Source: Bacteroidota bacterium
GTDB lineage: Bacteria; Bacteroidota; Bacteroidia; Palsa-948
Direction of reading: 5' to 3'
DNA: 64,000 nt
Assembly: GCA_016195025.1 (NCBI GenBank)
Contig: JACQAL010000077.1
Coordinates: forward strand, 1-64,000
Position numbers and translations under genes: made by a program. Position 1 is the stretch's first letter; each line of letters begins with the position of its first letter. Positions 38,229 to 40,478 of the stretch are shown here, piece by piece. The notes under the pieces are model-generated. The model was given only the letters and a program-made list of their open reading frames with translations. It was not told the origin of the DNA and made no database searches.

Positions 38229-38870
38229 ATGGCAAACTTCCTTCAATTTCTTATCCCTCAGGAAAAAAGATTTTTCACGTTGTTTGAAAAATCATCAGAG
38301 AATCTTGTACACATTGCCAAAGCGCTGAACAGCGCGCTCACGCAAACCAATCATGAAAAAAGAAAAGAGCATTTCAAAGAAGTGGAGCGCTTCGAGCATG
38401 TTGGAGATAATCTCACGCACGATATTTTCAACGACCTGAACTCTACCTTCATTACTCCCTTTGACAGGGAGGATATTCACTCGCTTGCTTCCGCGCTCGA
38501 TGACATTGCGGATTTTATTCACGGAGCTTCCAAGCGGATTGATTTATACAATGTGGAGGAAATCACAACACCAATGATAAAATTATCCGAACTTATTATG
38601 CAGGGAGTTCAGGAACTGCACGCAGCTATTATTGTTTTAAGAAACATGAAAGGAGTAAGCAAAATAAAGGAAGCATGTGTGAAAATAAACAGCATTGAAA
38701 ATCACGCGGACGATATTTTTGACATGACCATTGCGCGTTTGTTCGAAGAAGAAAAAGATGCAGTTAAACTTATCAAACTGAAAGAAGTTCTTCACGCACT
38801 GGAAGCCGCCACTGATAAATGCGAAGATGCGGCAAATGTGCTCGAACAAATTGTGGTAAAAAATAATTAA
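38229..38870 (+). CDS. DUF47/PhoU-like phosphate transport accessory protein
   Basis: A 213-residue all-helical protein of the DUF47 (PhoU-like) family. FLIPQEKRFFTLFEKSSEN opens it; FERVEH-like and DREDIHSLASALDDIADFI, NSIENHADDIFDMTIARLF and LEAATDKCEDAANVLEQIVVK contain the paired E/D-xxx-D metal-binding helices. These proteins partner PiT transporters, which is the next gene here. Confidence 0.9.
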   Translation: MANFLQFLIPQEKRFFTLFEKSSENLVHIAKALNSALTQTNHEKRKEHFKEVERFEHVGDNLTHDIFNDLNSTFITPFDREDIHSLASALDDIADFIHGASKRIDLYNVEEITTPMIKLSELIMQGVQELHAAIIVLRNMKGVSKIKEACVKINSIENHADDIFDMTIARLFEEEKDAVKLIKLKEVLHALEAATDKCEDAANVLEQIVVKNN

Positions 38871-38904
38871 TCGTTCAGCAGCCAAGATAAACTAATGCAA
38901 ACAA

Positions 38905-38965
38905 TGCGAACAGATGCGAATACCGCGAATAAAAATATTAGCATCATTCGCATACATTTGTGTTT
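38905..38965. repeat. ATGCGAA-type imperfect inverted repeat
   Basis: Copies of atgcgaa at about 38915 and 38926 are matched in reverse by ttcgcat near 38948, in the spacer between the DUF47 and PiT genes. It resembles the AT-rich dispersed repeats elsewhere in the window. Confidence 0.45.
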
Positions 38966-39028
38966 TGGCATTATTTTATCTGTGCAAAAAAAATTTATCT
39001 GACTGTAATTTATATTAACTAATAATTT

Positions 39029-40018
39029 ATGCACATTGAATTTCTATACATAGTCATCGCAATTGCCTTCATATTTGATTTCATTAACGGATTTCACGAT
39101 GCTGCAAATTCCATTGCAACAGTTGTATCTACAAAAGTTCTTTCGCCATTGCAGGCGGTAATTTGGGCAGCGGTTTTTAATTTTGCTGCGTTCTGGTTAT
39201 TCAAATTACATGTTGCCGATTCTGTTTCTAAAATTGTAAAATCTGATTCTGTAAATTTAACCGTCATCGCTTCCGGTTTATCTGCTGCCATCATCTGGAA
39301 TTTATTTACCTGGTGGAAAGGAATTCCTTCTTCTTCATCGCACACGCTCATAGGAGGATTTGCAGGAGCAGGAATTGCGCTTGGAGGATTTAATGCCATC
39401 AACCTTGATAAAGTTCTTCCACCGATAGCGTTTATCGTTCTTGCTCCGGTCATCGGGATGATAATTTCCGCTCTCATCTCAGTAATTACAATGCACATTT
39501 GTAAAAGATTCAGTCCATCGAAAGTGGATAAAGTTTTTAAACGTTTTCAACTTTTATCTGCCGCTGCATATAGTTTGGGACATGGAGGAAACGATGCGCA
39601 GAAAGTTATGGGTGTTATTGCTGCAGCGCTCATCTCGCAAAAATTAATTCCGGATATAGCGCATCTTCCCGATTGGGTGCCGCTTGGATGTTACACTGCA
39701 ATTTCTTTTGGAACACTTTTCGGTGGATGGCGAATTATAAAAACGATGGGACAAAAAATTACCAAGATGCGGCAGTTCGAAGGATTTTCTGCTAACACTG
39801 CAGGCGCCATTACTCTTTTCGGAACAGGCGCGCTGGGAATTCCTGTCAGCACCACGCACGTTATCACCGGTTCGATTATCGGAGTGGGCGCAATCAAAAG
39901 ATTATCCGCAGTGAAATGGGGAGTGACGCGTGAACTTCTTTGGGCATGGATACTCACGATTCCTGTTACCGGAATTTTAGCCGCTGGAATATTTTATATC
40001 ATGAACTCTGTCCTCTGA
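39029..40018 (+). CDS. pit: Inorganic phosphate permease, PiT family
   Basis: A 329-residue inner-membrane transporter with about ten helices. The two inverted PiT signatures are GFHDAANSIATVVSTKVLSP near the start and SLGHGGNDAQKVMG in the second half, with VSTTHVITGSI near the end. The short length matches PiT proteins without the large cytosolic loop. It imports phosphate-metal complexes driven by proton motive force. Probably expressed with the DUF47 gene under the Pho-like box. Confidence 0.94.
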   Translation: MHIEFLYIVIAIAFIFDFINGFHDAANSIATVVSTKVLSPLQAVIWAAVFNFAAFWLFKLHVADSVSKIVKSDSVNLTVIASGLSAAIIWNLFTWWKGIPSSSSHTLIGGFAGAGIALGGFNAINLDKVLPPIAFIVLAPVIGMIISALISVITMHICKRFSPSKVDKVFKRFQLLSAAAYSLGHGGNDAQKVMGVIAAALISQKLIPDIAHLPDWVPLGCYTAISFGTLFGGWRIIKTMGQKITKMRQFEGFSANTAGAITLFGTGALGIPVSTTHVITGSIIGVGAIKRLSAVKWGVTRELLWAWILTIPVTGILAAGIFYIMNSVL

Positions 40019-40049: not shown

Positions 40050-40478
40050 ATGAAAAAGATTCTTTTCGTCTGCGTAGAAAATTCCAACCGAAGCCAGATG
40101 GCTGAAGCGTTTGCACGCCTCTCCCTAACCCTCTCCGAAGGAGAGGGGACAATACAAGTCTTTAGTGCGGGATCAAAACCTTCTGGTAAAATAAACCCTA
40201 AAGCGATTGAGGCAATGAAAGAAATCGGATACGACCTCACTACTCACAAATCAAAATCTTTAGAAGAGGTTATGAACTCCCTCTCCTTCGGAGAGGGTCA
40301 GGGTGAGGCCTTTGAATATGTAATCACCATGGGCTGCGGAGATGATTGTCCTTTTATTCCTGCAAAGCACCGCCTTGACTGGCAAATTCCTCAGCCGAAG
40401 GATATGGATAAGGATGAGTTCAGGAAGGTGAGGGATATGATTGAGGAGAAGGTGAAGCGCTTAATGGAAAATGTATAA
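40050..40478 (+). CDS. arsC: Arsenate reductase, low-molecular-weight phosphatase type, with two inserted repeats
   Basis: A 142-residue protein. ILFVCVENSNRSQMAEAFA contains the CX5R active loop; VFSAGSKPSGKINPKAIEAMKEIGYDL and VITMGCGDDCPF carry the remaining redox cysteines. The family is about 130 residues. The extra length is two insertions: LSLTLSEGEG after AFAR and NSLSFGEGQG after EEV, encoded by opposite-orientation copies of the same palindrome. Both keep the frame, and both replace surface loops rather than catalytic segments, so the enzyme may still work. Could also act as a protein-tyrosine phosphatase. Confidence 0.85.
   Translation: MKKILFVCVENSNRSQMAEAFARLSLTLSEGEGTIQVFSAGSKPSGKINPKAIEAMKEIGYDLTTHKSKSLEEVMNSLSFGEGQGEAFEYVITMGCGDDCPFIPAKHRLDWQIPQPKDMDKDEFRKVRDMIEEKVKRLMENV
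40117..40149. repeat. Palindromic element, copy 1, within the ArsC gene
   Basis: Core CCCTCTCC (40129-40136), loop GAA, GGAGAGGG (40140-40147), with the conserved left flank cctctccctaa. In frame. Confidence 0.9.
40277..40309. repeat. Palindromic element, copy 2 (inverted), within the ArsC gene
   Basis: Core CCCTCTCC (40279-40286), loop TTC, GGAGAGGG (40290-40297), with the right flank tcagggtgaggc. Its reverse complement matches copy 1 including the flank, so it is the same element in the other direction. Confidence 0.9.

Follow-up and report, generated by a model that had tools for sequence, protein, structure and literature searches.

How does a small enzyme gene of a Bacteroidota genome come to carry two inverted copies of one palindrome, both in its reading frame, and what could have put them there? 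We analysed a window of 64,000 nt (the whole stretch of DNA under study) and related genomes. In the window, the palindrome pattern with up to two mismatches has exactly two matches, both inside arsC, and none in 100 shuffles. With its tail included and up to three mismatches allowed, the pattern has nine matches in the same genome, compared with none for a reversed control.

The arsC gene and its two insertions

The product of the host gene was identified as LMWPc/ArsC (PF01451, 6.6e-21), and its best PDB match is the ArsC structure 3t38 (2.6e-21). The features of the locus are listed below (window positions; the coordinates of the two cysteine motifs were obtained by counting, for the first from the ATG at 40050).

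40050–40478, plus strand: arsC (thioredoxin-type arsenate reductase/LMW phosphatase fold), the host gene; 142 codons and a stop
40071–40091, plus strand: catalytic CX5R loop, C8 to R14, intact; C8 and R14 are invariant columns
40117–40149, minus strand: element copy 1 (cmsearch 50.4 bits, E 1.6e-11)
40150–40276, plus strand: 127 nt of native ArsC sequence separating the two copies, whose tails point outward; conserved in all aligned orthologues
40277–40309, plus strand: element copy 2 (cmsearch 55.9 bits, E 3.9e-13)
40335–40349, plus strand: second cysteine pair C96-GDD-C100, intact; invariant in 7/7 aligned ArsC

Copy 1 consists of the hairpin CCCTCTCC-GAA-GGAGAGGG (40129–40147) and a tail (40117–40128) facing the 5' end of arsC, and copy 2 of the hairpin CCCTCTCC-TTC-GGAGAGGG (40279–40297) and a tail (40298–40309) facing the 3' end. 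Both palindromes are exact, and the 31-nt arms 40117–40147 and 40279–40309 are 94% complementary, in agreement with the first-pass annotation, which had reported two in-frame copies in opposite orientation. The palindromes lie as reported there, but each runs on into a G-rich tail of about 12 nt, so that the element measures 33 nt in all. Copy 1 encodes approximately RLSLTLSEGEG and copy 2 approximately NSLSFGEGQGEA. The annotation had also considered that arsC might be a pseudogene; the frame is open over 142 codons from the ATG, the gene is conserved, and C8, R14, C96 and C100 are all kept, as it had stated for the catalytic motif and the later cysteines. The predicted structure has a mean pLDDT of 81.8 (the sole stretch below 50 being residues 81–84, within the second insert) and matches the solved ArsC 2myu with a Z score of 18.3 and an rmsd of 1.8 Å over 126 residues. 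ArsC with both inserts keeps its catalytic cysteines and, by prediction, its fold.

Concerning the surroundings of the gene, the ORFs upstream of arsC (38229–40018) resemble, by eye, a PhoU-like protein and a Pit-type phosphate transporter, so that arsenate reductase apparently adjoins phosphate uptake. A plasmid collection searched with arsC returned just short, weak matches, to elements or to other ArsC genes. Short element matches (H2, H4–H8; E 2e-4 to 0.4) lie in records of Nostoc, Neisseria gonorrhoeae, Aeromonas, Acinetobacter and Azospirillum. Other phyla may have palindromes of this kind.

Alignment with ArsC of relatives, which had been proposed as a check, revealed both empty and filled sites. 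Of 60 related genomes 41 have a match, and only five besides the window's own are at least 65% identical. ArsC of G005, from the same genus, has inserts at both sites: the one at site 1 is oriented as in the window but belongs to another variant (stem CCCTTCCC/GGGAAGGG), and the one at site 2 is nearly the same element as the window's. In G004, also of the same genus, site 1 is empty and site 2 holds a variant element. Neither site holds the element in four outgroups (G025, G049, G013 and, more distant, G036). The stem differences between species, read from the orthologue sequences, are compensated on both sides. No relative was found to carry the same loops by unrelated codons; G004 and the outgroups are without site 1. 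Relative to the outgroups, the net gain at site 1 is +5 codons in the window and +10 in G005, and at site 2 it is +9 codons in the window and in G005 and +6 in G004. Both copies are indeed translated in loops, but because the net gain in the window is only +5 and +9 codons, the native loop was partly replaced and not simply lengthened by ten residues each time, as had been supposed. Judging from these orthologues, site 2 was probably filled earlier than site 1. The native sequence at site 1 of G004, GGAAAGGG, resembles the right arm of the element; this was seen once and is absent at site 2. It is close to certain that both loops of ArsC are copies, inserted in frame, of a palindromic element that is dispersed.

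The element family across the genus

A covariance model of 33 positions (8 bp stem, 3-nt loop and 12-nt tail) was run on eight genomes. The six same-genus genomes, G000 to G005, gave 81, 38, 126, at least 150, 98 and 148 matches at E ≤ 10, with up to 150 candidates scored per genome, and their best E values lie between 1e-11 and 1e-12. In two other genera the counts are 11 and 6 (best E 0.085 and 0.78), so the element is nearly absent there. All eight stem pairs changed on both sides (82 double-sided cells compared with 16.2 shuffled) in an alignment of 150 matches with 138 distinct rows, which was fitted to the structure; subfamilies alone could account for part of this covariation.

For the gene context we sampled 60 stretches round top-scoring matches in four genomes and rescanned them with the earlier loci, which gave 188 matches at E ≤ 1. 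After same-place duplicates and one palindrome-only overlap were left out, 102 copies with E < 1e-3 were kept; these are mostly top-scoring copies and not a random sample, and genes were called by a simple codon score. Called genes hold 72 of the 102 copies and cover 79.5% of the bases in the sampled stretches. By placement, 57 copies lie well inside genes and 26 are intergenic; of the rest, 7 are close to the N-terminus, 8 are close to the C-terminus and 4 run over a gene end. The figure of 72 is a slight undercount, because the gene caller put both elements of the G005 arsC (L011) as intergenic. The internal copies lie in both orientations (33 sense, 24 antisense), and the encoded peptides vary with frame and orientation. 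The genome-wide count proposed in the first-pass annotation therefore yields many more copies, mostly in genes, and its claim of in-gene, in-frame insertion of a palindrome in Bacteroidota is borne out by the filled and empty orthologues and by copies in many genes.

The host genes confirmed with Pfam include YchF, RimO, a UbiD-family decarboxylase, a pyruvate-carboxylase-like enzyme, peptidase M1, PurH, HisD, PFOR, SufBD, Asp/Glu racemase, MetRS, phosphomethylpyrimidine kinase, prephenate dehydratase, a cytochrome c assembly protein and an M20 peptidase. In YchF of the window's own genome, 13 element-derived residues stand in place of 11 native ones (compared with relatives other than G005), and insertion can thus replace native sequence. 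The element (L003 1497–1529, contig C49) replaces the residues after CNV, where relatives have CNVDE.., and which we take to be the NxxE nucleotide-specificity motif; if so, this YchF may differ in activity or in the nucleotide it prefers. Copies are also seen near the C-termini of other proteins. Three repeat-rich secreted proteins of G003 (L126, L127, L128) have one or two copies in the same region, round a conserved NNNYFTVE. Four secreted-looking proteins of the own genome (L083, L086, L087, L088) have copies after a G.YF..L motif, which looks like a sorting domain; this is a recurrent insertion place.

Neighbouring elements show a preferred layout. Among 33 pairs up to 450 nt apart (E up to about 0.1), 25 have their tails outward, 2 inward and 6 in the same direction (outward vs inward, p 5.6e-6). 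Two insertions in one gene, which had been thought unusual, thus follow a common arrangement. The arsC pair is one such outward pair, with native sequence between its copies; at least one other (L116/L161) spans a DUF559 domain. Paired ends without DUF559 occur. At three places (L116 2920–3020, L101 2894–2972 and L091 1875–1950) two ends stand just 11–35 nt apart, encoding ..GE/GRE..KVLPLGEDLGGA-like peptides; these look like units cut down to both ends.

DUF559 domains, palindromic ends and in-frame units

The first case of a larger unit was the recJ gene of one relative, in which a DUF559 domain lies between two such palindromes. The six same-genus genomes contain 8, 2, 7, 11, 4 and 7 matches to DUF559 (PF04480; n = 39). 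Of these we examined 28 loci, and at 17 of them an element of at least 16 bits lies within 170 nt of the domain or overlaps it; the flanking elements are 22 tail-outward and 4 inward. The other 11 loci have no such palindrome nearby, and some of them have other inverted repeats. The same distance criterion gave 0 of 10 for same-genus RAYT loci (Fisher p 8e-4), one of which has an element about 900 nt off. Flanking inverted repeats of any sequence scoring at least 30 were found at 19 of the 29 first-set loci (the 28 same-genus loci and one of G007) and at 34 of 78 of the wide set, compared with 7.9% of 2140 mispaired flanks and 0 of 535 shuffles; two of the 109 loci, with short flanks, and L155, a broken copy, were left out. 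In G005 (contig C114), two tandem DUF559 genes (L143 and L156) lie about 570 nt apart with palindromes around each. Layout and counts lend good support to the view that such palindromes are ends of DUF559 units. The outward layout alone does not single out DUF559, because outward dimers are also usual in REPs (PMC3733652).

Full units are found in frame inside conserved proteins. The RecJ stretch that begins at KIL.YGDYDVDGTT and ends near PDRYKEGYG is 612 nt long in both G001 and G003 and 624 nt long in G006, and 138 nt (empty) in G005, G004, G019 and G009; RecJ of G000 is also empty, judged by coordinates. The inserts add 158–162 codons, and no second recJ is present among the matches of G001, G003 and G006. 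LeuRS has a match in all 60 genomes. Its stretch NWIG..TRPDT measures 504–597 nt in G051, G059, G019, G011 and G029 and 93 or 102 nt in eight other loci (of 19 loci tried, 6 were missed by the pattern), so that this patchy insert, found in 5 of 60 genomes, adds 137–168 codons relative to the 93-nt form. The empty orthologues of both proteins display the insert junctions, and no solo palindrome was seen at either site in the relatives' sequences covered. No target-site duplication is obvious by eye at the ArsC, RecJ, LeuRS or YchF junctions.

Two known kinds of insert were tried and rejected. An intein was rejected for the RecJ host: hmmscan of the RecJ–DUF559 protein gave only DUF559, DHH, DHHA1, RecJ_OB and MTES_1575, and no Hint or splicing domain. 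A group I or II intron was rejected because the host frames run open through the DUF559 inserts and no catalytic intron RNA was found at the inserts with Rfam (12 loci); the single match, a Flavo-1 sRNA, lies outside the insert.

In a census of the class, chosen to be less biased, DUF559 is present in 65 of 119 genomes. Among the 150 matches listed, the open frame around the domain reaches 300 codons or more in 48 cases and 700 or more in 37. When GTDB genomes were scanned with the DUF559 alignment, 80 of 553 relatives were kept, most of them from Bacteroidota and some from Chloroflexota, cyanobacteria and others; 61 of the 80 lie in open frames of more than 250 codons, the query having leaned to in-gene copies. 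The hosts recognised by eye include LeuRS, MetH (two sites), MetRS, RecJ, acetyl-CoA synthetase, TsaD, TsaB, RecG and MutS; these names rest on recognised motifs, RecJ being the one confirmed by a family scan. Cultured strains have in-frame units too, among them Gillisia mitskevichiae DSM 19839 (in LeuRS) and Flavobacterium cucumis DSM 18830 (in MetH). On a contig filed under Candidatus Paceibacterota, which is possibly misbinned, DUF559 lies in a LeuRS-like frame (L172).

Based on a tree of the domain (an alignment of 114 rows by 106 columns, treated by a quick method that left 57 of the 110 inner branches open; site labels by eye), the RecJ inserts form one clade (99, a starred branch), and the Flavobacterium inserts of the two MetH sites group together (98, likewise starred). 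Those of LeuRS do not form a single clade (12 changes, of which starred branches alone force only 1). Overall the labels cluster (28 changes vs a shuffled mean of 65.4); near-copies alone could cause this, and the tree is no proof of homing.

Concerning the domain itself, a profile of 17 DUF559 domains matches PDB 3hrl (2.6e-29) and 3r3p, I-Bth0305I (5e-5), which bears the PDB name 'Mobile intron protein'. In Foldseek the predicted model (pLDDT 87.9) matches 3hrl and 3r3p (TM 0.71), and there is a weak match to Vsr 1vsr (E 0.027). DUF559 is thus predicted to have a Vsr-like/EDxHD nuclease fold, close to the homing endonuclease I-Bth0305I. Acidic and histidine residues are invariant in both in-gene and free copies, as continued selection on the nuclease would lead one to expect. 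DUF559 was assigned to the EDxHD family earlier (PMC9403480), and a Caulobacter DUF559 protein was called Vsr-like (PMC12907096). In the open-licence literature, at the level of titles and abstract openings, no description of DUF559 bounded by palindromes or of in-frame DUF559 inserts was found.

Origin of the insertions and comparison with known systems

The explanation we favour, and hold to be somewhat better than an even bet, is that these are translated, non-splicing, homing-endonuclease-like elements together with solo and paired ends derived from them, and that ArsC carries two ends. That the element, a hairpin of 8–9 bp with a G-rich tail of about 12 nt, is dispersed and enters genes in frame is shown, as are its presence or absence at orthologous sites, the covariation of its stem and the association of such ends with DUF559. 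The copies would be mobile and remain in the protein as surface loops, and hairpin–tail units with tails outward would form both ends of a larger DUF559 (Vsr-like/EDxHD) unit, translated in host proteins. The nuclease would break target DNA, repair of the break would install the full unit or its ends alone, and selection would retain those insertions that are in frame and in loops. We infer that DUF559 moves the solo copies, by this break-and-repair route. No other account of the mover is as economical, but it is unproven, and the correlation with RAYT described below contests it. Also counting against the favoured explanation are the 11 DUF559 loci that have no such palindrome nearby, the lack of a solo palindrome at the RecJ and LeuRS insert sites in the relatives' sequences covered, and the fact that tails-outward pairs are usual for REPs too. 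For the wider claim the chances seem to us evenly balanced: across the phylum, a palindrome-bounded DUF559/EDxHD nuclease would insert itself, with the frame kept, in surface loops of such essential enzymes as LeuRS, MetH, MetRS, RecJ, TsaD and RecG and stay in the working protein, and its shed ends would be the scattered in-gene palindromes, including the ArsC pair.

The main rival, to which we give perhaps one chance in a few, is that RAYT transposases (Y1, IS200/IS605-type) move the palindromes, which would be REP/RPE-like repeats between which DUF559 genes only chance to be carried. The element count per genome follows RAYT (PF01797 counts of 3, 0, 6, 8, 3 and 8 in the six same-genus genomes) with rho 0.97 (n = 6), compared with a non-significant rho of 0.64 for DUF559, and intragenic REPs and outward dimers are known (PMC3733652). 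Against it stand the absence of the element within 170 nt of the ten same-genus RAYT loci and a stem without an adjoining GTAG tag. At least four RAYT loci (L048, L050, L045, L049) are moreover bracketed by inverted repeats of other sequence; L051 is likewise bracketed by its own inverted palindromes, and the sequences differ among the five. G001 has no RAYT match and 38 element matches, and its copies may be old. As no examined RAYT locus is bounded by this palindrome we rejected RAYT as the mover; the copy-number correlation keeps it as a rival.

The remaining alternatives fare worse. Inserts kept for the action of their hairpins in mRNA (pausing, stability or pairing of copies) and not for mobility would agree with the covarying stems and with the complementarity of the two ArsC copies, but independent insertion of subtypes also predicts covariation, the hosts are many unrelated genes with copies in both orientations, and no Rfam family matched at the inserts (12 loci); we regard this as improbable. 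An artefact of assembly or binning of a metagenome genome comes to mind since two same-genus members (L174, L175) appear to be MAGs; the recurrence of ArsC site 2 and of the RecJ insert in separate assemblies and the in-frame units of the two cultured strains make it very improbable. Least credible of all is ordinary expansion of ArsC loops, palindromic by chance: loop lengths do differ among relatives, but the lack of matches in shuffles, the nine genome copies against none for the control, and the presence of the element in unrelated genes, as a genome-wide family, contradict it almost completely.

If the favoured explanation holds, survival by shortness, frame-keeping and choice of loops would be a further solution for such elements, and in-gene palindromes, as in the RPE of Rickettsia, would gain a testable candidate mover. 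The 33-nt and approximately 160-codon versions are natural tests of the tolerance of essential enzymes for foreign sequence. The inserts can also mislead annotation (DUF559 in LeuRS or MetH).

Among known systems, transposons and MITEs combine a mobility gene between inverted terminal repeats with derivatives reduced to those repeats. Here inverted ends accompany DUF559 at 17 of the 28 loci, and paired ends without it exist, which may derive from full units. Like inteins, the units place an endonuclease domain in frame in a conserved host protein; unlike them, they have no Hint or splicing domain (RecJ case), the insert of about 160 codons being mostly DUF559 and palindromic ends. I-Bth0305I is intron-encoded. 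DUF559 shares sequence and predicted fold with this EDxHD homing endonuclease, but is translated within host proteins and has palindromic ends, and no splicing element was found. Mitochondrial double-hairpin and byp elements are short hairpins in coding genes, for which endonucleases are suspected as movers, and byp elements are skipped by the ribosome. The element resembles both in placing short hairpins within coding genes and differs from byp in that the reading frame is kept.

The closest likenesses are to bacterial repeats. GTAG/CGTC REPs have a hairpin with one tagged end; outward dimers are usual, and intragenic copies and two insertions in one gene are known (Di Nocera 2013, PMC3733652). 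The element shares the hairpin with a one-sided tail, the outward pairs, the intragenic copies and the two insertions per gene. It differs in that it has a TYRGGGTGAGG-like tail of about 12 nt and no GTAG/CGTC beside the stem (a CCTC-type variant of CGTC is possible), in that the scored copies are mostly in genes, and in that they adjoin DUF559 and not RAYTs. RPE are palindromes about 150 bp long with a conserved encoded peptide, set in the reading frame of unrelated genes whose proteins appear to be functional (Ogata 2000, 2002, as cited in PMC10969869). The analogy with Rickettsia drawn in the first-pass annotation is a fair one: the element is likewise a palindromic repeat, in frame, within unrelated genes. 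It differs from RPE as described in that source by its length of 33 nt, its several frames and both orientations, its occurrence in Bacteroidota and its link to a nuclease gene. The element thus works like an RPE, yet is not classed as one, since its length and encoded peptide differ.
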